Part shown: positions 41,693 to 57,440 of the stretch, piece by piece
Layout of the letters: each line of letters opens with the position of its first letter
Position numbering within the stretch: position 1 is the stretch's first letter
Assembly: GCF_001570785.1 (NCBI RefSeq)
Contig: NZ_BCSI01000003.1
Coordinates: forward strand, 124,001 to 188,000
Reading direction: 5' to 3'
Origin: Dermabacter hominis NBRC 106157
GTDB taxonomy: Bacteria > Actinomycetota > Actinomycetes > Actinomycetales > Dermabacteraceae
Length of the DNA: 64,000 nucleotides
Notes under the pieces: model-generated
The model's database searches: none
Seen by the model: only the letters and a program-made list of their open reading frames with translations
What the model was told of the DNA's origin: nothing
Program-made: the position numbers and the translations under genes

Positions 41693-42655
41693 GTGCCCGA
41701 GCTTCCCGAGGTTGAGGTCGTTCGTCGAGGCCTCGAGCCGTACATGGCCTCGCGCGTGATCGAACGCGTCGAGGTGCTCGATGCACGCTCGCTCAAACGC
41801 CACTCTGGCGGCGCGGAAAGTTTCGTGCGGCAGCTTGAGGGGCGCCGCATTCGCTCGGTTGCGAGGCGAGGAAAGTTCCTGTGGGCGCCGCTATCCGACG
41901 CCGGCTACGCTCCTTCGATTCCTTCAGCGCACGGCGAAGCGCTCGTCATGCATCTGGGCATGAGCGGCCAGCTTCGTGTTCGCGACGGGGAAGTGCGCGG
42001 GGCGAGTCAAACGTCGGAACCGCACGTGAGCGAGGGACCCGCGCCAGATCCCGCGACCCACCTACGCATTCGCCTTCACATGGAGGGCGGTGCGCGCATC
42101 GATTTTGTGGATCAGCGGATTTTTGGCGGGATGCACGTAAGCCCGCTGATCGGTACGGCCGATGCTCGTGCAGGGGGCGAGGGCACCGATCTTCCGCTCA
42201 TTCCGCAAAGCGCGGCGCATATTGCCCGTGACCTGCTCGATCCTTGTCTCGATGAAGAGCTCCTCGTGCGCCGGATCCGTAGGCGCACGGCCCCCATCAA
42301 ATCCGTCATCCTGGATCAAAGCACCCTCAGCGGGATCGGGAATATCTACGCTGACGAGGGCCTATGGGAGGCGCGGCTGCATTTCGCGCGCCCCGCGATC
42401 GGAATCTCGAGTCGAAAGGTCAAGGAGCTTCTGCGGGCGTGCCGTGAAGTCATGCAGCGCGCCCTCGAGGTGGGCGGAACGAGCTTCGATGCGCTATACG
42501 TGAACGTCGATGGCCGAAGCGGCTATTTCGCTCGGTCACTGAAGGCCTACGGCAAGCACGGCACCCCATGCCCACGGTGCAATCGTGCCCTCGTGCGGAC
42601 GCAATTCCAGAATCGCTCGAGCCACTTCTGCCCGTCCTGCCAGCGGAAACGCTGA
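41693..42655 (+). CDS. mutM: Formamidopyrimidine-DNA glycosylase
   Basis: Removes oxidised purines such as 8-oxoguanine. 320 aa, longer than the usual 270-290 because of an insert around residues 98-125. After removal of the start residue the catalytic P2-E3 is exposed (PELPEVEVVRRGL); the lysine of RRGKFLWAPL, the YADEGLWEARLHFARPA region and the zinc finger cysteines C293, C296, C313 and C316 are intact. The last 135 bp are repeated at 57306-57440, so the present 3' end was probably brought in with the defence island. GTG start. Confidence 0.95.
   Translation: MPELPEVEVVRRGLEPYMASRVIERVEVLDARSLKRHSGGAESFVRQLEGRRIRSVARRGKFLWAPLSDAGYAPSIPSAHGEALVMHLGMSGQLRVRDGEVRGASQTSEPHVSEGPAPDPATHLRIRLHMEGGARIDFVDQRIFGGMHVSPLIGTADARAGGEGTDLPLIPQSAAHIARDLLDPCLDEELLVRRIRRRTAPIKSVILDQSTLSGIGNIYADEGLWEARLHFARPAIGISSRKVKELLRACREVMQRALEVGGTSFDALYVNVDGRSGYFARSLKAYGKHGTPCPRCNRALVRTQFQNRSSHFCPSCQRKR
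42521..42655 (+). repeat. Left direct repeat: 3' end of mutM
   Basis: These 135 bp align without gaps to 57306-57440 with 112 identities (83%). The longest exact block is the 25 bp at 42569-42593, equal to 57354-57378, which encodes the first cysteine pair of the zinc finger. Both copies are in the same orientation and bracket the defence island. Confidence 0.92.
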
Positions 42656-42977: not shown

Positions 42978-44984
42978 GTGTCAGTCCTGTCCAACTTCGT
43001 GTGGAGTGTCGCCGACACTCTGCGCGGACCTTACGCAGAGTCCGAGTACGGCTCCGTCATCCTCCCCTTCACCGTGCTCCGCCGCCTCGAATGCGTTATG
43101 GAGCCGCACCGTGAGGTCATGGCAGAGGTCGTTGCGCAGTACAGCGGGGAGCAGCAGCGCCGCACGCACCTGAAGATCCGCACGCGCACCGAGGACAACG
43201 CAGGTCTTTCCTTCTGGACCACGAGCGACTACACGCTCGAGAAGGCGCTGCAGGACCCCGACAACCTCGCCGAAAACCTCATCGACTACGTGAGCGGGTT
43301 CTCAGCGAACCTGGACGTCTTCAAGTCCTTCGGCTTCGAGAACGTCATCAAGTTGCTCGAAGAACGCAATCGGTTAGCACAGGTCGTCCACCACTTCGAG
43401 AAGATCGATCTGTCACCTGAAGGTGTGTCCAACGCTGACATGGGTGACCTGTTCGAGAACCTGATCTACAGGTTTGCCGAGTCGGCCAACAATGGTGCCG
43501 GTCAGTTCTACACTCCCCGTGACGTCGTCCGGCTCCTCGTCGACCTCGTCTATGCCGAGGACACCGAGGCGCTGCGCGACCGCGGCACGGTCCGGTCGAT
43601 CTACGACCCGACAGTCGGCACCGGCGGCATGCTCACCGTCGCCGACGAGCACCTGCACAGCCTCAACCCGGACGCATCCATTGCGCTGTTCGGGCAGGAG
43701 ATCAACTCCCGAACCTACGCGATCTGCAAAGCCGACCTGCTCATCAAGGGCCAGGACCCGAGCAACGTACGGCAGGGCGACACCCTCTTCGAGGACCGGT
43801 TCGAGGACCGTCGCTTCGACTACGTGCTCTCCAATCCACCCTTCGGAACCGACTGGAAAGCCGTCGAGGCAGAGGTGAAGAACGAGCACGCCCGGGGTGG
43901 CCAGGGACGGTTCGCGCCGGGCCTGCCTGGTGTCGGTGACGCCGCGATGCTGTTTCTGCTGCATGTGGCGGCGAAGATGCGTGACGTCGATGAGACAGGA
44001 CGCGGAGGCCGCGCCGGCATCGTCCTCAACGGTTCTCCACTATTCAACGGCGGTGCGGGCTCCGGCCCATCCGAGATCCGTGGCCACATGCTCGAGAACG
44101 ACCTCGTCGAGGCGATCGTCGCACTGCCGAACGACATGTTCTACAACACCGATATCGCCACCTACCTGTGGATCCTCACGAACTCGAAGTCCGACGAACG
44201 CCGAGGCACCGTTCGGCTCATCGACGCCACCGCGCTGGGTACGAAGATGCGCAAGTCGATTGGCAACAAGCGCATGGAGATCTCGGGTCAGAACCGCGAG
44301 GACATCGTGCGTGCCTTCGCCGGCACGCAAGACGAGGACGCCGACGTGCAGGTGCCCGTCAAGACCTTCTCGAACCGCGACTTCGCGTACTGGACAGTCA
44401 CTGTCGAGCGCCCGCTGCAGCTTCGTTTCCAGTGCACTCCGGAAGCGATCGCTGCCGTTTCCCAGCAGAAGACCCTCGCGAACGTCGAGGGTCTCGCCGA
44501 GGCGCTCGCGTCCTTCGGTGACGAGGTCTACCTCAACCGTGAGAAGTTCAACAAAGAGCTTGGTGGTCACGTCAAGAGCCGTGGCGTCGATCTCTCCGCA
44601 GCCCAGCGCAAGAAGCTCTGGCAGACAATCGGTGTCCATGACGAGACCGCCGACTACTGCCGTGCGATCTCGGGGAAGAACAAGGGCGATCTCGAGCCCG
44701 ACCCGGCGCTGCGTGACACCGAGAACGTGCCGTTCGGGTGGGGTGGTCACCCGAAGACGCACGAGGCGCTCCGCGAGACCGTTGAGGCATACTTCGACGC
44801 CGAGGTGAAGCCCTACGTCCACGACGCCTGGGTCGATTGGGAAAAGACGAAGACGGGCTACGAGATTCCATTTACCCGACACTTCTACACCTACGATCCG
44901 CCTAGGCCGCTCGACGAGATCGACGCCGACCTCGAGAGGGTCGTCGGCGAGATCATGACGTTGCTGCGCGAGGTGGAGTCGTGA
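42978..44984 (+). CDS. hsdM: Type I restriction-modification system, methylation subunit
   Basis: 668-aa N6-adenine methyltransferase. An N-terminal HsdM_N helical domain (LSNFVWSVADTLRGPYAESEYGSVILPFTVLRRLE in the first 40 residues) precedes GAGQFYTPRDVVRLLVDL, motif I at D210 (YDPTVGTGGML) and motif IV N286-P-P-F-G. The LPNDMFYNTDIATYLWIL and RRGTVRLIDA blocks are standard. It forms the M2S methylase with HsdS, whose GTG overlaps its TGA. Codon usage and G+C are close to the host's, so the donor was probably another actinobacterium. Confidence 0.96.
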   Translation: MSVLSNFVWSVADTLRGPYAESEYGSVILPFTVLRRLECVMEPHREVMAEVVAQYSGEQQRRTHLKIRTRTEDNAGLSFWTTSDYTLEKALQDPDNLAENLIDYVSGFSANLDVFKSFGFENVIKLLEERNRLAQVVHHFEKIDLSPEGVSNADMGDLFENLIYRFAESANNGAGQFYTPRDVVRLLVDLVYAEDTEALRDRGTVRSIYDPTVGTGGMLTVADEHLHSLNPDASIALFGQEINSRTYAICKADLLIKGQDPSNVRQGDTLFEDRFEDRRFDYVLSNPPFGTDWKAVEAEVKNEHARGGQGRFAPGLPGVGDAAMLFLLHVAAKMRDVDETGRGGRAGIVLNGSPLFNGGAGSGPSEIRGHMLENDLVEAIVALPNDMFYNTDIATYLWILTNSKSDERRGTVRLIDATALGTKMRKSIGNKRMEISGQNREDIVRAFAGTQDEDADVQVPVKTFSNRDFAYWTVTVERPLQLRFQCTPEAIAAVSQQKTLANVEGLAEALASFGDEVYLNREKFNKELGGHVKSRGVDLSAAQRKKLWQTIGVHDETADYCRAISGKNKGDLEPDPALRDTENVPFGWGGHPKTHEALRETVEAYFDAEVKPYVHDAWVDWEKTKTGYEIPFTRHFYTYDPPRPLDEIDADLERVVGEIMTLLREVES

Positions 44985-46261
44985 GCCCGGCGGTATGGGA
45001 ACGGTCGCGCCTCAAGTACGTCGCCGATTGCAACAGACATGTGCTTTCGGAGTCGACGTGTGATGACCGCACATTCAAGTACGTCGACATCGGTGCCGTT
45101 GGACAAGGCACGATGGACATCCCCGATGACACAACTCGATTCGGCGACGCCCCATCCCGTGCGCGCAGATTGGCAGAACCGGGTGACATTGTCATCTCCA
45201 CAGTTCGGACGTATCTGCGCGCGGTAGCGACGGTTCCCGAGACGGACGAGAAACTGGTCTTTTCGACAGGTTTCGCGGTGTTGCACCCGCGGGCGGGCAT
45301 CTCCCGGCGGTTCTTTGCTTACGTGCTCCAGGGCGACGAGTTCGTCGACAAGGTCGTAGCGAACAGCGTCGGTGTGTCCTATCCAGCGATCACAGCCACT
45401 GACCTGATGTCGCTGGATCTCCAACTCCCGCATGTTGACGAGCAACATGCCATCGCCGACTACCTGGACCACGAGACGGCCCAAATCGACGCGCTCGTGG
45501 CCAAGCAGGAGGAACTCATCCGTCATCTCGAGGAGCGCCGTCTCACGGTCATCACGACCGCTGCACTGATGGGCCTCCAGGGCGAAGAAGGGGGCGAGCA
45601 CGACTTCTCGCGGTGGGGGAGCTCGCTGGCCGTCGAGCCTTGGCTCGCGCGATCACCATGCTCGTGGCGTATGGAGCGCTTTAAGACGGTTTGCCTGGCG
45701 CGGGAGGAGCGCAACGTCACAGGGACCGAGATGATGCTGTCGCTGACGGTCAAGGGCCATCTGATCGATCGTTCGACCATGGCCATCCAGCAGAACGCTT
45801 CCGACGTGTCTATCCCTCGATACTTCGTGGCGCGGCCGAGCGATCTCGTCGTCAACCCGATGTGGTTGATCGGCGGTGCGATCGGAGTCTCGGATAAGCG
45901 GGGAGCCGTCAGCCCTGACTACCGCGTGTTCGAGATCGACACAGCGCTGAACCCCCGGTACCTGCATGCGGTGCTCCGCTCCGCGCCCTACTTCGACCAG
46001 TACAAGCTGTACACCCGGTCCAACACGACGTTCGACCGCCGGATCAAGCAGAACGACCTCGACAACCTGCCCCTACCGATCCCGCCGATCGATGAGCAGC
46101 GTGCGATCGTCGAGCACATCGAGGAGCAGACTGCTCAGATCGACGTCCTGATCGCCAAATCGGAAGAACATATCGCCCTGGCCAAGGAGCGTCGCTCGGC
46201 GCTCATCACGGCGGCGGTGACGGGGCAGATCGACGTACGCACAGCACGGAAAGCGAGCTAA
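44981..46261 (+). CDS. hsdS: Type I restriction-modification system, specificity subunit
   Basis: 426 aa. Two target-recognition domains, each ending in the conserved helix motif: the first LDLQLPHVDEQHAIADYLDHETAQIDALVAKQEELI (about 145-185), the second LPLPIPPIDEQRAIVEHIEEQTAQIDVLIAKSEEHI (about 360-400). It sets the bipartite target sequence. The two half-repeats are intact, so the enzyme should be active. GTG overlaps hsdM; hsdR starts 3 nt after its stop. Confidence 0.96.
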   Translation: MSPAVWERSRLKYVADCNRHVLSESTCDDRTFKYVDIGAVGQGTMDIPDDTTRFGDAPSRARRLAEPGDIVISTVRTYLRAVATVPETDEKLVFSTGFAVLHPRAGISRRFFAYVLQGDEFVDKVVANSVGVSYPAITATDLMSLDLQLPHVDEQHAIADYLDHETAQIDALVAKQEELIRHLEERRLTVITTAALMGLQGEEGGEHDFSRWGSSLAVEPWLARSPCSWRMERFKTVCLAREERNVTGTEMMLSLTVKGHLIDRSTMAIQQNASDVSIPRYFVARPSDLVVNPMWLIGGAIGVSDKRGAVSPDYRVFEIDTALNPRYLHAVLRSAPYFDQYKLYTRSNTTFDRRIKQNDLDNLPLPIPPIDEQRAIVEHIEEQTAQIDVLIAKSEEHIALAKERRSALITAAVTGQIDVRTARKAS

Positions 46262-46264
46262 ACC

Positions 46265-49200
46265 ATGGCAGCACCGGACGGTACACGCGAGGCTGCGTTC
46301 GAGACCGAGATCGCCGAGTACCTCGCGGTTCACGGTTGGGAGTACAGCGAGACGGACACCGGCTACGACGTCGAACGGGCGATCTGGCCCGAGGACGTGC
46401 ACTGGTGGTTGCAAGAGACCCAGCCAGACGAGTACGCCAAGGTCGTGCGCGTTGGCACCGGCGCGGAAGCCGCGGATCGCGAGGCGCTGTTGAACTCCCT
46501 CGTTACCCACCTCGATATGCCCATGAGTTCCGGCGGTGGCACGCTCAACGTCCTGCGCCGGAAGTTCTCCCACACCTGCGGAGCGACGGCGCACCTGCGC
46601 ATGTGCCAGTTCAAACCGGCCACCACGCTCAATAAGGCTGTCACGGAGAACTACCGCAAGGTGCGGCTGCGTGTAGTCCGGCAGGTCCACTTCTCATCCA
46701 AACGTGGTGACTCGCGGTCGATCGACCTCGTCTTCTTCGTCAATGGTCTTCCTGTAGCGACCTGCGAGCTCAAATCCTTCTTCAAGCAGGAGTGGCGTTC
46801 GGCGGTCACCCAGTATCGGAAGGACCGTGATCCGGCCGGCCAGCCGCTGCTAGGGTTTGGCACCCGCGCGCTCGTGCACTTCGCGGTCGATGACGACCAG
46901 GTGCATATGACCACGAAGCTCGCGGGGGAGAAGACGTACTTCTTGCCGTTCAACCGCGGTCACGAGGACACCGGGGCGGCCGGCAACCCGTCGAATCCGG
47001 ACGGTGCTGCGACGTCCTACCTGTGGGAGGAAGTCCTCCAGCGCGAAAACCTGTTGGCGGTGCTCGGCTCGCAGATGTTCCTCAGGACCGAGGTCAACGA
47101 GGACCCGGCTACGGGGAAGATCAAACGCTCCACCGCGCTCATGTTCCCGCGCTACCACCAGTGGCGTGCGGTGAAGAAGCTTGTGGAGACGATCACCGAG
47201 GAGGGCCCCGGGTACCGATATCTGATCGAACACTCCGCCGGCTCGGGCAAGACGAACACGATCGCGTGGACCGCACACCGCCTCGCCCGCCTCCACGACA
47301 CCTCGAACGAGAAGGTCTTCGACAAGGTCCTCATCGTCTCCGACCGGCGTGTCCTCGACGCTCAGCTGCAGCAGGCTGTCGAGCAGGTCGATGACACCGT
47401 CGGCACCGTCGCCGTCATCGACTCCACAGCAGTGCGTCGTTCCGGTGGCTCCAAGTCCCGGGCGCTGCTGGACGCTCTCACCGGGTCGGCACTCATCGTC
47501 GTCGTCACCATTCAGACCTTCCCCTACGTGAAGGATCTTCTCGACACGACCCTCGGGCACAAGAACTTCGCGGTGATCGTCGACGAGGCCCACACCTCAC
47601 AGTCGGGTAAGACCGCGGGCGATCTCAAGAAGGTCCTCACCGACGGTGGTCAGTTCACCGATGAGGAGGAACTCGACAGCCAGGACGTCATCAACCAGAC
47701 CGTCGAAGCCGACCTCGCCCGCGAGCAGCAGATCGCTGCCGAGACCGCTGCGCGTGCGGGTGCTCGGAACGTGTCGCTCCTGGCGTTCACCGCGACACCG
47801 AAGGCGAAGACCAAACAGCTCTTCGGGCGGGAGAACGACGAGGGCAAACCCGTCTCGTTCGACGTGTATCCGATGAGGCAGGCCATCGAGGAGGGCTTCA
47901 TCCTCGACGTTTTGCGCGGTTACCAGACCTACAAGACCGCCTTCGAGATCGAGCGGCGCGGTGAGAAGGGCCTCGTCACCGAGCTCTCCCACGGTGAGGA
48001 CGGGGATCGACTCGTCGACCCGAAAGCCGCCACGCGCAAGATCATAAGGTTCGCGAAGCTGCACCCGACGAACGTCGGGCAGAAGGTCGAGATCATCGTC
48101 GAACACTTCCGGGCCAACGTCGCGCACCTGCTCGACGGGCATGCCAAGGCCATGGTCGTCACGGATTCTCGCCAGGCTGCGGTGCGGTACAAGATCGAGA
48201 CCGACAAGTACCTCGCCGAGAAGGGGTACGGGTACCAGTCGATCGTGGCGTTCTCCGGGAAGATCAGTGACGAGAACTACGGCCTGGAGGACGCCACTGA
48301 GGCGACGATGAACCCCGGGCTCGGTTCCGACCTCGCGAAGGAGTTCCGCCGCCCGAATTACCGGCTCATGCTCGTCGCCGACAAGTTCCAGACGGGTTTC
48401 GACCAACCCTTGCTGTGCGCGATGTACGTCGACAAGAAGCTCCCCGACGTGCACGCGGTCCAGACCCTGTCCCGGCTCAATCGCACCTACCGTGCGCCCT
48501 CCGGTGAGGTGAAGGACCGCACCTTCGTCCTCGACTTCGTTAACGACCCCGAGGAGATCCAGGAAGCCTTCCTCACGTACTACCTCGAGGCGCACGTCGA
48601 GACGGGTACGGATCCGAACCTCGTGCACAGGCTCGCGACGAAGCTCGCGCAGGCGCGCATCTACACGCCTGCCGACGTCGAGCAGTACGCCGAGGCGTGG
48701 TGGGTCCCGAAGCAGTCGCATGCCCGACTGGCTGCCGCGGTGACGCCAGCCCGGGATGAGTTCGTGAACCGGTGGACCGAGGCGCACGCACAGCAGGACT
48801 CACAGGCGCTCGACGATCTGCGGACCTTCCGGAAGGACTGTGGTTCGTATGTACGTCTGTATGACTTCATGTCCCAGGTGGTCGACTACGGCACCAGTGA
48901 TTTGGAGAAGCTCGCAGAGTTTCTCCGTCAGCTCACGAGACTGTTGCCCGGCGAGGAGCAGAGCGTTGACGTCGACGTATCCGGGCTCGAGCTGCGCCGG
49001 GTCCGTCAGATCGACCAGGGCAAGGCGAACATCGGCTTGTCAGGCGACCAGGACACCCCGCCGCTACCTGGCATCACCGGCATCGGTTCTAGAGTCATCG
49101 GGAAGGACCCGCAGCAAGAACTGTTGTCGGAGATCGTCGATCGCATCAACGCCCTCTTTGGGGCCGAGTTCGCCGACCCGCAGATCGAAGGGTTCGTCGT

Positions 49201-49486
49201 CGCCGCGGCCGGCATGGCCGAGGAAGACCCCCGCATCGCTGACCAGATCGATCACAATGCCCTGGACCAGTTTATGGCCTCGCCCGAGTTGCGCGAGACC
49301 CTCACCGACGCCGCTGTGCTCAACGAGGGCGCGTTCGGGAAACTCACCGGAGCGCTCACCGGTGAGAGCGACCGGGCCGATGAATTCATCCGCCTTATCG
49401 GGCAATTCCTCTACCGGTCGCGTCGGATGCGGACGATTGACGAGACAGCTCCGGGTGCCGCAGAGTCCTCCGTCGAGGGCGAGTGA
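46265..49486 (+). CDS. hsdR: Type I restriction-modification system, endonuclease subunit
   Basis: 1073 aa, the ATP-driven translocase and nuclease. The N-terminal PD-(D/E)XK nuclease has E168-L-K170 in ATCELKSFFKQ after DLVFFVNG; Walker A is SAGSGKT with K329; the DEAH box starts at D440 (VIVDEAHTSQSG); LAFTATPKAKT, VADKFQTGFDQPLL and TLSRLNR are further motor motifs. The C-terminal helical domain ends near residue 1060. The stop overlaps the next gene (GTGA, 49483-49486), so the downstream methylase-like gene belongs to the same operon, which is unusual for type I systems. Confidence 0.96.
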   Translation: MAAPDGTREAAFETEIAEYLAVHGWEYSETDTGYDVERAIWPEDVHWWLQETQPDEYAKVVRVGTGAEAADREALLNSLVTHLDMPMSSGGGTLNVLRRKFSHTCGATAHLRMCQFKPATTLNKAVTENYRKVRLRVVRQVHFSSKRGDSRSIDLVFFVNGLPVATCELKSFFKQEWRSAVTQYRKDRDPAGQPLLGFGTRALVHFAVDDDQVHMTTKLAGEKTYFLPFNRGHEDTGAAGNPSNPDGAATSYLWEEVLQRENLLAVLGSQMFLRTEVNEDPATGKIKRSTALMFPRYHQWRAVKKLVETITEEGPGYRYLIEHSAGSGKTNTIAWTAHRLARLHDTSNEKVFDKVLIVSDRRVLDAQLQQAVEQVDDTVGTVAVIDSTAVRRSGGSKSRALLDALTGSALIVVVTIQTFPYVKDLLDTTLGHKNFAVIVDEAHTSQSGKTAGDLKKVLTDGGQFTDEEELDSQDVINQTVEADLAREQQIAAETAARAGARNVSLLAFTATPKAKTKQLFGRENDEGKPVSFDVYPMRQAIEEGFILDVLRGYQTYKTAFEIERRGEKGLVTELSHGEDGDRLVDPKAATRKIIRFAKLHPTNVGQKVEIIVEHFRANVAHLLDGHAKAMVVTDSRQAAVRYKIETDKYLAEKGYGYQSIVAFSGKISDENYGLEDATEATMNPGLGSDLAKEFRRPNYRLMLVADKFQTGFDQPLLCAMYVDKKLPDVHAVQTLSRLNRTYRAPSGEVKDRTFVLDFVNDPEEIQEAFLTYYLEAHVETGTDPNLVHRLATKLAQARIYTPADVEQYAEAWWVPKQSHARLAAAVTPARDEFVNRWTEAHAQQDSQALDDLRTFRKDCGSYVRLYDFMSQVVDYGTSDLEKLAEFLRQLTRLLPGEEQSVDVDVSGLELRRVRQIDQGKANIGLSGDQDTPPLPGITGIGSRVIGKDPQQELLSEIVDRINALFGAEFADPQIEGFVVAAAGMAEEDPRIADQIDHNALDQFMASPELRETLTDAAVLNEGAFGKLTGALTGESDRADEFIRLIGQFLYRSRRMRTIDETAPGAAESSVEGE

Positions 49487-52014
49487 TCGGGATGGCGACG
49501 AAGAAGGCTCCACATCCGGCGATCAGCGCGGTTCTTCAAAACTCTGACTCGGTGCCGTACTCCGACAGGAACCGCGGTCTGGTCGGCCTGGAGCACACGA
49601 CGAGTGAGTCCTTGGCACGAGCGCTTGCCATCGGCGCCCTCAGCCGCCTAGATCCGAGCCTCGCGACTGTCGACGTCTGGGATCCTGCGGCCGGATTGGG
49701 GTTCGCCGGATACCTCTTGGTCGACGCTCTGCAGTCCTCGGGAGTTAACGTCCGGTATCGCGGCCAGGACATCAACGAGGCTGCAGTGTCGGAAAGCCTT
49801 CGCCGGTTCGAGACGATCCGCGACGCTGAGATCGCGCATGCGGACACGCTGGTGCACGACGCCTTCGAGGGCTTCCGCGCCGATCTGGTGATCGTCGACG
49901 CGCCCTGGGGCATGCACTGGAGACACTCGTCTGCGGCAGTGGAAGCGCGGCAGTCTGTCGGCGAGTTCGGATTCGGCCTCCCGCAGCGCTCCGATAGCAC
50001 CTGGTTGTTCATCTCTCTGGCGCTGGAGAAGCTGCGCCCGGCGGAGCAGGGCGGGGGGCGCGTCGCGGCATTGGTGAACCCCGGCGCTCTGAGCTCCGGC
50101 GGAGCAACCGGTGCTGTCCGGCAACGGATCGTCGACGCCGGCCTGCTGGAGTCGGTCACCCGTCTCCCCGATGGCCTCGCACCGGACACGTGGATCCCCC
50201 TGTACCTCCTGACCTTCTCCAACAGAGCCGATGACGTCGGCAAGGGGAAGACGATGATCGCGGACCTACAGACGATGTTCACCACGGAGCACGGCCGCAG
50301 ATCGATTCCAGTCGAGACGTTCGACACGCTCGAATCCGCGCTAAGGACGAAGAAGGCGGGCCCGCGCAATCGGTCCATCAGCACCAGGCAATTCACGCGC
50401 AGGGATGCACGCCTGTCGCGCACCACGAACGAAGGAAACCGGCTGTCGTGGCGCGTCACCACGTATAACGACGTGGCGATCGACGGTCAGTTCCTGGAGA
50501 CTCGCTATGGCCCGGACTCCGGCATCGAGTTGGACAAGGAACCACGCGAGATCGTCGACCTCGACCCCAGCCGCATCTTCGGCGATGACTCGCGCGAACT
50601 GCTCCGAGACATGGCCGCGAAGGGCTGGCCCGAATGCCGCCTGAGCAGCCTTCTCGCCCGAGAGCCTGAGGCGATGCTGGACGCGGTTGACCGAGACGAC
50701 GAACACCAACTGTTCGTGCCGACGACCGGGGCCGGTAGAGTCACCACCGACGGCTCGGAGACAAACACCGGCGGACGTGTGCTGTCCGTTCGACTCGACA
50801 GCGATGTGGTCTACCTGCCCTTCCTTGCGGCGTGGCTTAATTCGGAGCAGGGCGTCGCCAGCCGGCTCCGCGCCATCGAAGTCGCCAGTTCGGGCCATCA
50901 ATTCCGGGCTCTGGGGTCGGACGCTAACTCGCTGATGAGGTGGGCCGACGAACTCCTCCTGCCGCTCCCGGACCGCAGGGTCCAACTAGCCCTCGCCTCG
51001 GCGGATGAACGGCTCGGTTCGTTCCAGGCGGAGCTCGGCACTCAGCGAGCCAGCATCTGGTCTGCCCCAGAAAGTGCTGACGACGTCGTGAGCAAGATCG
51101 CGGGAGCATTCGACGACTCGCTGACCGCGTGGCTGGAACAGTTGCCGTACCCGATCGCCTCGGCGCTGTGGACCGCCGAGTCGGCCCAAGCGGCGGTGGA
51201 GAAGCAACGCGCTTATCTCCACGCCTGGGAGGCGATCGTGACTTTCCACGCGACCGTCCTGCTCGCCGCGACTCGTAGCGACCCTGGTAGTAGTAGCGAG
51301 ATCGAAGCGGCGATCCGTGAGACATTGCATGAGCATCATCTGGGCATCGAGAAGGCGTCGTTCGGCACCTGGGTGGTCATCGTCGAGAAGACCTCGAAGA
51401 GCCTGCGCAGCGCGCTCGAGAACGGCAACGCCGACGACGTGGCCCGCGTCCGCCGGGCGTTCGCCGACCTCGGCCGCGCAGGAATCGAGCGGTTGATCTC
51501 GAAGGACGTCGTCAAGAAGTTCAACGAGTTGAACAGCAAGCGGAATCGGTGGTCTGGCCACACAGGCTACACCTCGGAGCAAGAGCTGAGAACCCAGATC
51601 GACTCGCTTGTCTCGGACCTCAGGGAGCTTCGCGGACTCCTCGGGAACGTGTGGTCTCAGCTGCTGCTCGTCCGTCCGGGCAGCGCCAAGCACCGTCGCG
51701 ACAGCGTCGTCCAGACCGCAGAGGTCGCCGTCGGAACGCGCACGCCGTTCGCCGCTCGAGAGTTCGCCGTGGGCGAGCACATGTACGAAGACGAGCTTTA
51801 CCTTGTCCGGGACGGCTCGCAGTCGCCGCTGCGCCTGGGCCACTTCGTTCAGCTGCGCGCCGCCCCGAGCAGCGCCCAGTTCACCACGTACTTCTACAAC
51901 CGCACCGAGGGGACGAGCGTGCGGATGGTCAGCTACCAGTATGGACCGGAAAGCGAGCGGGTGGAACACGTGGAGAACCTTCGGGCGGACTTCGGGGAGC
52001 TGGCTCGTCGGTGA
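49483..52014 (+). CDS. HsdM/HsdS-like fusion protein of unknown role (defence operon)
   Basis: 843 aa. Residues about 60-260 look like a divergent N6-adenine methylase: VDVWDPAAGLGFAGYLLVDAL as motif I, LVIVDAPWGMHW as motif IV (DAPW where HsdM has NPPF), then ALVNPGALSSGGATGAVRQRIVDAGLLESVTRLPDGL as in HsdM. About 370-525 resembles a target-recognition half of HsdS (WPECRLSSLLA to LPFLAAWLNSEQGVASRL and LLLPLPDRRVQLALASADERL). The last 300 residues are helical and end in a beta-rich segment; no nuclease motif is visible. GTG overlaps the hsdR stop. It may methylate a second site or act as a sensor. I do not recognise a named system with this protein. Confidence 0.75.
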   Translation: MIGMATKKAPHPAISAVLQNSDSVPYSDRNRGLVGLEHTTSESLARALAIGALSRLDPSLATVDVWDPAAGLGFAGYLLVDALQSSGVNVRYRGQDINEAAVSESLRRFETIRDAEIAHADTLVHDAFEGFRADLVIVDAPWGMHWRHSSAAVEARQSVGEFGFGLPQRSDSTWLFISLALEKLRPAEQGGGRVAALVNPGALSSGGATGAVRQRIVDAGLLESVTRLPDGLAPDTWIPLYLLTFSNRADDVGKGKTMIADLQTMFTTEHGRRSIPVETFDTLESALRTKKAGPRNRSISTRQFTRRDARLSRTTNEGNRLSWRVTTYNDVAIDGQFLETRYGPDSGIELDKEPREIVDLDPSRIFGDDSRELLRDMAAKGWPECRLSSLLAREPEAMLDAVDRDDEHQLFVPTTGAGRVTTDGSETNTGGRVLSVRLDSDVVYLPFLAAWLNSEQGVASRLRAIEVASSGHQFRALGSDANSLMRWADELLLPLPDRRVQLALASADERLGSFQAELGTQRASIWSAPESADDVVSKIAGAFDDSLTAWLEQLPYPIASALWTAESAQAAVEKQRAYLHAWEAIVTFHATVLLAATRSDPGSSSEIEAAIRETLHEHHLGIEKASFGTWVVIVEKTSKSLRSALENGNADDVARVRRAFADLGRAGIERLISKDVVKKFNELNSKRNRWSGHTGYTSEQELRTQIDSLVSDLRELRGLLGNVWSQLLLVRPGSAKHRRDSVVQTAEVAVGTRTPFAAREFAVGEHMYEDELYLVRDGSQSPLRLGHFVQLRAAPSSAQFTTYFYNRTEGTSVRMVSYQYGPESERVEHVENLRADFGELARR

Positions 52015-52085: not shown

Positions 52086-54128
52086 ATGGCACTGACCACG
52101 TCACTCAAAGGGCGAGTTCGCAACACCAGTCTGCCGAAGAGCCACGCACTCTTGCCTCTCCTCGAGGCGGTCGTCAACGCCATACAGGCCGTCGATGACC
52201 GATTTGGCGACGCGGTCGAACACGGACGCATCGCCGTCAGGATTGACAGGAGGCTGCAGGACTCGCTCGATCTCGGCCCGGCCGGACCCGGCCGTACGCC
52301 GCAGAAGGCGATCACAGGGTTTGCCATCGAGGACAACGGCGTGGGTTTCACCCCCGAGAACATGGACTCCTTTGAGACTCTGGACACCGACTACAAGGCC
52401 GAGCTCGGCTGCCGGGGAGTTGGTCGCCTCCTCTGGCTGAAGGCGTTCGACAGGGTTGTCGTCAGCAGCGCGTACAAGAACAGTGACGGAGAGCTTTGCG
52501 GTCGTCGGTTCCGGTTCTCGATGGACCGGGAGGTCGAGCATGGCGGAGAGCCGGAAGGCCTCACCGAACCCGGCGCTGTCGTACGCCTGGACGGCTTCAA
52601 GGAGTCCTACCAGCAGGCCGCGGCGAAGACTGTCGAAGCAATCGCTCGCGAAATTTTCGAACACTGCATTTGGTACTTCCTTCGACCGGGAGGCGCTCCC
52701 GAGATCACGGTGTCCGATGGTGAGAGTTCCGTCGCGCTGAAAGACCTGATGCACGAGTTCGTGTACTCAGAGATGCCGACCACCACGATCGATGTCAAGG
52801 GTGAGAAGTTCGAGATGGTCAACCTCTGCTTGAAGTCGTCAACACGCAACCAGAGCCCACGGCTCCACTGGTGCGCCGCCAGCCGCGTGGTGATGGAGGA
52901 GAATCTCACTGGTAAGGTCCCCGGCCTCTATGGTCGGTTGAAGGACGAGAACGCCACGGAATTTACCTACGTCTGCTACCTATCGTCGGGTTTTCTCGAC
53001 ACACGCGTTCGCAGTGACCGTACTGGCTTCGACATCATGGATCGGGTCGCCGGCGCGTCACTGCTCGACGACGTTTCGCTGGACGACATCCGCGCGGCCG
53101 CGCTCAAGGAGGTGGAGCGGATCCTTGCGACGCCCCTCAGCGCCGCGCGCCAGGAGGGTAAGGCGCGGGTGAACGACTTCGTGAGCAATCGCTCGCCGAG
53201 GTATCGTCCGGTTCTCTCGCGTCTCGAGTCGCTGGGCGTGACTGTCGATCCGACGATCAAAGACCAGGACCTCGAGATCATGCTGCATCGCAGCCTGCAG
53301 AAGCTCGAGGCGGACGCCATCGCCGAGGGACAGGCCGTGTTCGCCGAGGTCGGCTCCGCACCGCTCGAAGACTACGAAGAGCGCCTCGCCGAATACCTTG
53401 ACAAGGTCACCGAGATCAACCAGTCGGACCTCGCCGCGTATGTGTTCCGTCGCCGCAAGATCCTCGACTTGCTCTCCAAGCTGATCCGATCCGACGACCA
53501 CGGAAAGTACAGCCGCGAGGAGACGATCCACTCGCTGCTGTTCCCGATGCGGAAGGACTCGAACGAGGTCGGCACCGATGCCTCAAACCTCTGGATTCTC
53601 GACGAGCGTCTCGCGTTCCACGACTACCTGGCGTCCGACAAGACGCTCAAGAGCACACCGATCACGGGCTCGGAGTCGACGAAGGAGCCGGACATACTCT
53701 CGATGAGGCTTGCCGATCGGCCGGTGCTCGCCGCCGAGGGCAAGTCGCTACCCCTACCGTCAATCGTCGTGGTCGAGATCAAGCGACCGATGCGCAACGA
53801 CGCGACCGAAGATAAAGATCCGATTCAGCAGTGCCTCGAGTACGTGAAGCGAGTGCGGGAGGGCGGGGTGCGAACGGCAGCCGGCCGCCAGATTCCTAAG
53901 TCCCAGGACCCACCGGCGTTCTGCTACATCGTCGCCGATCTCACGCCGACGATGATCAGTCGATGCGAGTATGCGAACTTGCGGCCGACTCACGATGGCC
54001 TCGGCTACTTTGGATTCAACGAACCGAACAAGGCGTACATCGAGGTCGTGAACTTCGACCGGCTTGTGAACGCGGCTACGGAGAGGAACCGGGCGTTCTT
54101 CGACAAGCTAGGGCTGCCGTCGACATAG
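52086..54128 (+). CDS. GHKL ATPase fused to PD-(D/E)XK nuclease (putative defence effector)
   Basis: 680 aa. The N-terminal GHKL (MutL/Hsp90-type) ATPase has the N box E27-A-V-V-N31, the G1 box D83-N-G-V-G87 and a glycine lid GCRGVGR (108-114). The middle is helical. The C-terminus carries a nuclease motif, P535-D536 then VVVE564-I-K566-R-P with a downstream Gln helix (DPIQQCLEYVKRV); E-[I/L]-K-R-P resembles the Shedu/DUF4263 nuclease core. ATG with GAGGAAG upstream, 71 nt after the HsdM/HsdS-like gene, same strand. An ATP-gated DNA-cutting effector is inferred. It is not HsdR-like, having no helicase motifs. Confidence 0.75.
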   Translation: MALTTSLKGRVRNTSLPKSHALLPLLEAVVNAIQAVDDRFGDAVEHGRIAVRIDRRLQDSLDLGPAGPGRTPQKAITGFAIEDNGVGFTPENMDSFETLDTDYKAELGCRGVGRLLWLKAFDRVVVSSAYKNSDGELCGRRFRFSMDREVEHGGEPEGLTEPGAVVRLDGFKESYQQAAAKTVEAIAREIFEHCIWYFLRPGGAPEITVSDGESSVALKDLMHEFVYSEMPTTTIDVKGEKFEMVNLCLKSSTRNQSPRLHWCAASRVVMEENLTGKVPGLYGRLKDENATEFTYVCYLSSGFLDTRVRSDRTGFDIMDRVAGASLLDDVSLDDIRAAALKEVERILATPLSAARQEGKARVNDFVSNRSPRYRPVLSRLESLGVTVDPTIKDQDLEIMLHRSLQKLEADAIAEGQAVFAEVGSAPLEDYEERLAEYLDKVTEINQSDLAAYVFRRRKILDLLSKLIRSDDHGKYSREETIHSLLFPMRKDSNEVGTDASNLWILDERLAFHDYLASDKTLKSTPITGSESTKEPDILSMRLADRPVLAAEGKSLPLPSIVVVEIKRPMRNDATEDKDPIQQCLEYVKRVREGGVRTAAGRQIPKSQDPPAFCYIVADLTPTMISRCEYANLRPTHDGLGYFGFNEPNKAYIEVVNFDRLVNAATERNRAFFDKLGLPST

Positions 54129-55697: not shown

Positions 55698-57173
55698 ATG
55701 CCTAGTGGACCGCTGCATCTGGCTGAGTCCCATGAGTGGTCCGGACTGTGGTGGCTGCCTGACGCGCCGGATGATCGGGTGCCAGGCGTGCTCCGCTACG
55801 ACCGCGATGGCGGTGTGAGGTTGACGTTGATCGGTACATTCGAAGACCGGATCTTCTCCTCGCCTCAGCCCGGGGTAATGCTTGAGCACGATGGCGTGCG
55901 GTCTTGGGAGGTCATCCACGGTGTCGCCGAGGCGAGGGAAATCACTCTGCTCGGGTGCAACTTTACGAACTCGAACCGAAATCTTGGGCCCCGGGTTCAG
56001 AGTCCTGACAAACAGGTGGTCTCGGCTCAGTCCGCGCTGATTGGTGTCCATGCTACGAACGGAGGTGACGCCCTGTTCGAAGCACTTCAACTCTCGATCG
56101 AGAACCTCAGGCGCTGGTCCGCCGTCACGGTTTTCTCATCTTCCATTGGTGTTCTAGACGGGAAGCGTCCCGACGGGAGCGGCTCCATTTCGGCGAAGCC
56201 TATGGAATCCACGTCGGTCCTGGTCGACGGCACCGAGTACTCACTTGAGCACCTTCGCAATCCTCCGTACTTCGACGAGCTTCGCGGGAGGACGACCGCG
56301 CGGATGCGTGACACGGTCTTCCTGCAGGTCGCTCCGCGAGGGGCATGCTCCTTCGAGGAAGCGCTCGCATCGATGAAGTCTCTGCAGGACCTGATTTCGC
56401 TCGCGACCCATCGTGCTGCCGGGGTGATCTGGCTGCGGCTAAAGCTGACGGGAGACGGACCGGGGGCCGAACGACATCCGATGGAGCGTTATGTCGAGGT
56501 GCTCTACTTGCCCGCCGCAGTGGGGGAGCGAGATGCAAAGGCCATCGAGCACCGCAGAGTGTTCTTCACCTGCAGGGACATTCCCTTCGAGGAGATCGTC
56601 CCGCGATGGTGCGCTGTGCGAGATCGCCTCCGGGCCTCGATGGACCTGATCTTGGCGCTGAGGTACGCGCCGGCGCAGTACGTCGAGAGCCGTCTTCTCA
56701 TGGCGGTCGGCGCTGCCGAAGCCCTCCATCGGGCGCTCGGAATCGAAAAGCGCCCAATGCCGAATGCTGAGTTCAAGAAGATGCGCGAGGCGATGCTTGA
56801 GCTGGCTCCGGAGGATCAGCGGGAGCGGCTCAAGTCCGCGATCCGCAACGACCTGACTCTCCGCGACCGGCTGGGGGCGCTAGTCAATCGGCCTGACCAG
56901 GAGGCGGTGTCTGTGCTCGTTCCTGATGTTGAGCGATGGGCCAGCAGGACTGTAAAGGCCCGCAACGACCTGGCTCATGAGGGGCGCACCCCGAGGCACG
57001 AGCTCGAGGAGCTCGTCGCCGTCGTCGAGGTCACAACGGGCGTGGTGATCCTGAATCTCTTGCACGAGATCGGGATGCCCGCGGACCGTCAGCGAGCGAT
57101 CGTGAGGGAGCATCCACAACTCCGGATGATCGCGAGTTGGGCGAGGACGGAGCTCGTGACGCCCGAAGCGTAA
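55698..57173 (+). CDS. apeA: ApeA-like HEPN abortive-infection protein
   Basis: 491 aa. The N-terminal part (SGLWWLPDAPDDRVPGVLRYDRDGGVRLTLIGTFED broken over strands, to about residue 300) follows the ApeA N-terminal domain; the C-terminal 150 residues are helical with R422-N-D-L-A-H427, the R-x4-H catalytic motif of HEPN ribonucleases. ApeA is known as a single-gene anti-phage defence protein thought to cleave RNA on infection. ATG with GGGGAGAG upstream, monocistronic, 191 bp after the broken small gene. The symbol is given by domain architecture; exact subfamily should be tested. Confidence 0.78.
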   Translation: MPSGPLHLAESHEWSGLWWLPDAPDDRVPGVLRYDRDGGVRLTLIGTFEDRIFSSPQPGVMLEHDGVRSWEVIHGVAEAREITLLGCNFTNSNRNLGPRVQSPDKQVVSAQSALIGVHATNGGDALFEALQLSIENLRRWSAVTVFSSSIGVLDGKRPDGSGSISAKPMESTSVLVDGTEYSLEHLRNPPYFDELRGRTTARMRDTVFLQVAPRGACSFEEALASMKSLQDLISLATHRAAGVIWLRLKLTGDGPGAERHPMERYVEVLYLPAAVGERDAKAIEHRRVFFTCRDIPFEEIVPRWCAVRDRLRASMDLILALRYAPAQYVESRLLMAVGAAEALHRALGIEKRPMPNAEFKKMREAMLELAPEDQRERLKSAIRNDLTLRDRLGALVNRPDQEAVSVLVPDVERWASRTVKARNDLAHEGRTPRHELEELVAVVEVTTGVVILNLLHEIGMPADRQRAIVREHPQLRMIASWARTELVTPEA

Positions 57174-57304: not shown

Positions 57305-57305
57305 C

Positions 57306-57440
57306 GACTATTTCGCCCGGTCGCTGAAGGCCGACGGCAAGCACAGAAGCCCGTGCCCACGGTGCAATCGTGCCCTCGCGCGGGCGCAGTTCCAGAACCG
57401 CTCGAGCCACTTCTGACCCTATTGTCAGCGCCTGCGCTAG
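57306..57440 (+). pseudogene. Right direct repeat: remnant of mutM 3' end
   Basis: Degenerate copy of the last 45 codons of mutM. It reads DYFARSLKADGKH, then SPCPRCNRALARAQFQNRSSHF, then TGA where mutM has the third zinc cysteine, then PYCQRLR and TAG. It has no start and is not attached to the rest of mutM. Its final TAG (57438-57440) interlocks with the chrA stop (57437-57439, other strand), so this looks like the original mutM end, once convergent with chrA, pushed away by the island. 83% identity to 42521-42655. Confidence 0.9.

Follow-up and report, generated by a model that had tools for sequence, protein, structure and literature searches.

A methylase-like protein with a candidate HEPN RNase domain encoded behind a type I restriction operon of Dermabacter hominis

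Introduction

Why would a type I restriction operon that encodes its own methylase carry a second, altered methylase-like protein as its fourth gene? The question is raised by a stretch of 64,000 nucleotides from Dermabacter hominis NBRC 106157 (contig NZ_BCSI01000003.1, positions 124,001 to 188,000; hereafter the window, whose numbering is used throughout). In the window, hsdM, hsdS and hsdR, all three typical by Pfam, are followed immediately 3' by a gene whose product we call X (Table 1). A previous reading made from the letters alone (the sequence-only reading) had described X as a divergent N6-methylase joined to an HsdS-like recognition half. It had proposed either an active modification enzyme in a single chain, like those of type IIG or BcgI-like systems, or a catalytically dead target sensor for the nuclease of the next gene. 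In this work, we propose that X probably serves as a back-up suicide weapon against phages and not as a second methylase. More specifically, the evidence moderately favors X as a mobile gene product that assists type I restriction, in which a HEPN RNA-cutting abortive-infection effector is fused to a methylase/recognition sensor.

Results

The reading frame of X is fully open on the forward strand, with 843 codons counted from GTG 49483, and its motifs DPAAGLGF (residues 67–74) and DAPW are as previously described. The ATG at 49492 (MATKK, 840 amino acids) is the likelier start, because the starts of close relatives fit it better than the GTG. The ratio of nonsynonymous to synonymous substitution rates (dN/dS) is 0.15–0.21 against relatives at 64%–83% identity, and X is a protein under purifying selection.

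The C-terminal third had been summarized as 300 further helical residues. This is correct up to about residue 723, where a predicted beta-rich piece (about 728–820) follows, and the description had missed a HEPN-like domain among the helices. A weak Pfam match to a Swt1-like HEPN domain pointed to the motif KRNRWSGHTG, in which R687-N-x4-H693 has the arrangement that defines the HEPN superfamily (Rx4-6H with a polar residue after R). The R, N, W, G, and H of this motif are invariant in all 11 aligned sequences, including one at 31% identity, and the same motif is carried by the X of locus L020. Metal-independent RNA cutting is expected of a HEPN R...H pair. When residues 600–726 were compared by hhalign with a clean set of 15 bacterial Swt1-type HEPN domains, nearly all of which possess RNxWAH, the match reached Prob 40 (P 3e-4) and brought the motif columns into register, while other segments of X scored 1% or less. 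An AlphaFold2 (AF2) model of residues 553–843 alone has a predicted template modelling score (pTM) of 0.68, with a predicted local distance difference test (pLDDT) of about 80–94 in the core helices. The top three structures found for this model by VIA-align are all HEPN toxins (8yuf, Z 8.4; 8xdj, Z 8.2; 5yep, Z 7.2), each aligned over about residues 553–730, and HepS follows at Z 5.8. When a profile of the C-terminal part was searched against solved structures, the matches were all weak and irrelevant. The HEPN region is also the best-kept large segment of X in most comparisons, and between close loci it is 84%–91% identical, compared with 71%–76% for the recognition-like part. Taken with the motif, the model and the profile alignment, residues 553–727 are likely to form a HEPN domain, an assignment short of proof. 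Part of the beta-rich tail resembles the N-domains of proteasomal ATPases (OB folds) at Z about 5.

The divergent N6-methylase core is well supported. Pfam N6_Mtase (PF02384) matches residues 64–288 with a score of 70.4 bits, where the cut-off is 20.4 (E 2.2e-19), and the best PADLOC model, PDLC03029 (MTase_I; E 2.7e-23), is also the best for the HsdM of the operon. Matches above chance in PHROGs, NCBIfam, and PADLOC are to methylase models only. The full-chain AF2 model is poor outside this core (pTM 0.36; residues 41–230 are the most confident, mostly at pLDDT 60–85). The core aligns with solved class I methyltransferases and HsdM subunits at Z 17–19.5. The lack of an S-adenosylmethionine (SAM) pocket and of an HsdS-like fold was to speak against the sequence-only reading; the core found here, in which the SAM-motif residues are kept, does not refute it. 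X is not simply another HsdM subunit, as Pfam finds no HsdM_N in it, the TIGR00497 score is 24.4 bits (cut-off 242.75), and the layout of HsdM_N followed by N6_Mtase is not present.

The catalytic motifs bear on whether X is an active second N6-methyladenine (m6A) methylase, acting on DNA or RNA through a recognition part of its own, with a HEPN-like domain that is merely structural. Motifs I, II (GQDIN), and III (ADTL) are recognizable, DAPW retains the motif IV aspartate and aromatic residue, and a recognition-like half follows the core, all of which would suit such an enzyme. However, motif IV, NPPF in the HsdM of the operon, reads DAPW in X, DAPW or, once, DSPW in close relatives and EIPY in the relative from Streptomyces; the motif X position has LEHTTS in place of the GQFYTP of HsdM; and the HEPN R...H pair is invariant. 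The departure of motif IV from the (N/D/S)PP(Y/F/W) consensus of N6-adenine methylases is not by itself proof of inactivity, and its variation within the family suggests relaxed constraint, again without proving that activity is lost. Since other m6A enzymes accept a D and a W at the two ends of motif IV, the Streptomyces form is likely inactive, whereas the form in the window may be active or dead. On balance, we regard an active second methylase as improbable. The related proposal of a one-chain enzyme of the type IIG or BcgI kind is not supported, as the C-terminal third is HEPN-like and a DNA-nuclease domain in the chain was rejected: neither Pfam nor PADLOC found a DNA endonuclease domain in X, although a very diverged one might have escaped them.

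The HsdS-like half was borne out. In hhalign, a profile built from 14 HsdS halves matched residues 296–540 (Prob 93.3, P 2.8e-7), with an alignment of 65 columns over about residues 428–506, while four other segments of X remained below 1% against the same profile. These hhalign comparisons were made with cleaned sets and controls; smaller or noisier sets had given weak matches. The aligned stretch corresponds to the distal part of a recognition domain, ends in the L-P-x-P...Q signature and precedes a long predicted helix (residues 498–526); the two segments previously quoted as recognition-like lie at about 446–463 and 491–511. Pfam Methylase_S (PF01420) has no match in X at E 1, and what the alignment supports is likeness to an HsdS half, not membership in the family.

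Relatives of X form a family of about a dozen members, and the alignments are accordingly shallow. A scan of genome contigs found nine (64%–83% identity, Actinomycetota), a plasmid collection added one on a Gordonia plasmid (80%) and three on Streptomyces plasmids (about 30%–31%), and whole-genome searches yielded one further genome (L020). The order hsdM-hsdS-hsdR-X is found in nine full loci (the window, L003, L004, L006, L007, L008, L010, L012, and L020), which fall on three diverged hsdMSR backbones; in L009, an hsdR tail is visible ahead of X before the contig ends. Linkage counts in this set are biased, as the relatives were drawn partly for having X. X is uncommon, being present in 1 of 396 genomes sampled from the whole phylum and in 3 of 347 drawn from the order (both counts include the genome of the window), while 58 of the 347 encode an HsdR relative at E 1e-100 or better, five of them at 81% identity or more. 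No X was found in 199 genomes of one actinobacterial genus with large genomes, a scan of viral contigs with the C-terminal profile gave no relative, and phage records matched the methylase core only. At eight loci with a related hsdR and no X, the slot 3' of hsdR holds no common gene but various genes or none. Other uncharacterized genes stand directly 3' of hsdR in two loci without X (L113, 3846–5945; L111, 4005–5579; reading orientation), one of which resembles a DUF262-type protein by eye. It is possible that this slot takes different accessories.

Comparison of the loci indicates that distinct hsdMSR backbones have exchanged X. In L007 and L010, HsdM and HsdR are 45%–57% identical to those of the window, whereas X is 73% (L007) and 64% (L010) identical, so that X has moved from one backbone to another. 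Among close loci, the identity of X (77%–83%) falls a little below that of HsdM and HsdR (81%–87%). HsdS is 37%–41% identical between close loci, and strong HsdS divergence is what swapping of target domains is expected to produce. Because the recognition-like part of X keeps 71%–76% identity where HsdS has 37%–39%, this part, if it recognizes DNA, would do so independently of the site specificity of the linked system.

Table 1. Positions of X, its predicted parts and the neighboring genes in the window
Feature	Position	Strand	Description and basis
X open reading frame	49483..52014	+	843 amino acids from GTG 49483; open reading frame and translation
Diverged N6-adenine methylase core	49588..50232	+	Residues 36–250; PF02384, PADLOC, VIA
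Motif IV (DAPW)	49897..49908	+	Residues 139–142; alignments
HsdS-like recognition half and long helix	50368..51138	+	Residues 296–552; hhalign, predicted helix
HEPN-like helical domain	51139..51663	+	Residues 553–727; AF2, VIA, hhalign
HEPN motif R687-N688-x4-H693	51541..51561	+	Within KRNRWSGHTG (residues 686–695); alignment
C-terminal beta-rich piece	51664..52011	+	Residues 728–843; low AF2 confidence; VIA
hsdM	42978..44984	+	PF02384 and HsdM_N; NPPF intact
hsdS	44981..46261	+	PF01420
hsdR	46265..49486	+	HSDR_N, SWI2_SNF2; stop codon overlaps the GTG of X
GHKL ATPase, paraMORC3-like	52086..54128	+	Weak HATPase_c; same island, outside the X unit

In its make-up, the protein encoded next to X resembles paraMORC3 of Iyer et al., which those authors describe as GHKL-S5 followed by a C-terminal restriction endonuclease (RE)-fold domain (PMC2292703). 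The proposal that X is a dead target sensor for this GHKL/nuclease protein draws on their adjacency on the same strand in the window and on the occurrence of the GHKL family near type I systems. Relatives of the GHKL protein are widespread, with 58 plasmid records, and are found next to other type I systems and, on a Vibrio fluvialis plasmid, beside a Shedu-family nuclease (L041, L042). However, no GHKL gene was found beside a relative of X at the loci inspected, and the inspected GHKL relatives are without X. A functional tie between the two was rejected on this ground, and synteny largely refutes the sensor proposal, which we consider highly improbable.

The surrounding island looks as if it were an element inserted at mutM. 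The 3' end of mutM is duplicated at 42520–42633 and 57305–57419 (115 columns, 88.7% identity, E 8e-36), and about 14.7 kb between the copies contain hsdMSR, X, the GHKL gene and an ApeA-like gene; no tRNA lies near the island. The latter gene (55698–57173) is a second HEPN gene, with ApeA_NTD1 (E 5e-55) and HEPN_Apea (E 6.5e-21), and is close to the PADLOC candidate PDC-S58. Elsewhere in the same genome, a 313-residue frame has a weak match to HEPN_Swt1 (E 0.0045, below the cut-off; G000:C3:46498-46608, minus strand; L017).

Discussion

If X is an abortive-infection effector, its function could proceed as follows. The front of the protein, an HsdM-like core with an HsdS-like half, probably docks on or senses DNA or the restriction complex, and X would stay quiet in the uninfected cell. 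The trigger sensed by this front may be restriction that is blocked by a phage inhibitor, or a state of the DNA. Upon triggering, the HEPN domain would be released to cut cellular RNA, and infection would be halted through dormancy or death, as with PrrC next to EcoprrI. Tentatively, X could be described as a DNA-sensing, RNA-cutting immune protein whose methylase/recognition module detects DNA that is foreign or unmodified, or restriction that is blocked, and then directly switches on the fused HEPN RNase, and which travels as a plug-in between diverged type I operons.

Several observations weigh against an effector of this kind. The Pfam HEPN_Swt1 model (PF18731) scores 15.6 bits on X against a gathering cut-off of 27.5 (E 0.03–0.2), and membership in that family was rejected. 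The VIA Z of about 8 is modest for a helical bundle, and a Foldseek search of the C-terminal model against PDB and BFVD gave no significant match. X is absent from two of the five genomes with an HsdR at 81% identity or more; with three of five carrying it, X is therefore an optional accessory that the restriction system does not need. Finally, two natural deletions have left X alone. In Gordonia sp. OPL2 (L005), only the final 72 bp of hsdR (87.5% identity, E 6e-19) remain ahead of X, and Aldersonia kunmingensis (L011) has a 104-bp hsdM remnant there (81%, E 1e-18). Searches of both genomes found no cognate HsdR and no close HsdM, the only HsdM-like match being one of 32% in L011, yet X is intact in both and its dN/dS in L005 is in the usual low range. 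A toxin that requires the restriction complex for silencing should not survive the loss of hsdMSR unless it is unexpressed. A strict latent toxin restrained by hsdMSR therefore fits these two cases poorly, unless X is silent in these genomes, with the reservation that solo loci with scars number only two. The converse loss is seen on the Gordonia plasmid (L012, 12001–14520), where hsdMSR is intact and a single TAG stands at codon 483 of X, which is annotated as two genes.

The solo loci lead to the main rival, in which X is self-contained: its methylase/recognition module would itself read DNA, for instance at an unmodified or phage-specific site, and switch on the HEPN RNase, with hsdMSR a frequent companion. 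The 31% Streptomyces plasmid relative, which stands without hsdMSR nearby, fits such a protein, as do the SAM-motif residues kept in X and a recognition part conserved independently of HsdS. However, X lies directly 3' of hsdR in all nine full loci and occupies the same slot after moving between backbones, which favors a functional tie, and the solo cases may be young relics. We consider a self-contained X rather unlikely, and retain the accessory of type I restriction as the preferred explanation.

Several known systems resemble X in part. Its core is closest to the HsdM subfamily of its own operon, and its recognition half and long helix are HsdS-like, but it lacks HsdM_N, has an altered motif IV and a single recognition half, and carries extra HEPN-like and beta-rich parts. 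Type IIG and BcgI-like enzymes also hold a methylase core and a recognition part in one chain, whereas in X no DNA-nuclease domain was found and a HEPN-like domain is present instead. The HEPN-MNT toxin-antitoxin systems (SO_3166 and relatives) supply the best structural matches of the C-terminal third; unlike them, X has no MNT antitoxin gene recognized adjacent to it, and its HEPN is fused, not free. HEPN-DUF499 systems (BREX-related, Hma) share the Abi2/Swt1-group HEPN, the RNxWAH motif and an operon resembling restriction-modification, but there an AAA+ ATPase carries the HEPN at its N terminus and the methylase has a gene of its own, so that the same parts are spread over different chains (PMC12839542).

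The closest working precedent is PrrC. The anticodon nucleases PrrC (with EcoprrI) and RloC, as predicted for X, are HEPN-type RNases encoded within or next to a type I hsd operon, and a second line of defence is the role proposed for them. The type I enzyme linked to PrrC keeps it silent, and a phage anti-restriction peptide releases it (PMC2610378). The sensing part of PrrC and RloC is an ABC ATPase, and no ATPase match was found in X by Pfam, PADLOC or NCBIfam; X instead has a methylase core with a recognition half and stands as the fourth gene, behind hsdR. As for silencing by the type I complex, the linkage of X is conserved, yet X outlives hsdMSR in two genomes. Loci that have naturally lost either partner make this silencing model directly testable.

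HEPN RNases as a fall-back for restriction are a known theme. A survey from 2013 states that the parts to which HEPN domains are fused in restriction-modification systems include helicases, nucleases and ATPases "but not to the methylases", and its mechanistic conclusions build on the lack of methylase fusions (PMC3710099). No report of a methylase-HEPN fusion in restriction-modification was found in the open-access papers searched, including those after 2013. If the assignment of the HEPN domain is true, a type I operon with a conserved methylase-recognition-HEPN protein would depart from the survey, which suggests that a methylase/recognition module can act as the sensor of a suicide RNase, the place that an ABC ATPase takes in PrrC and RloC.

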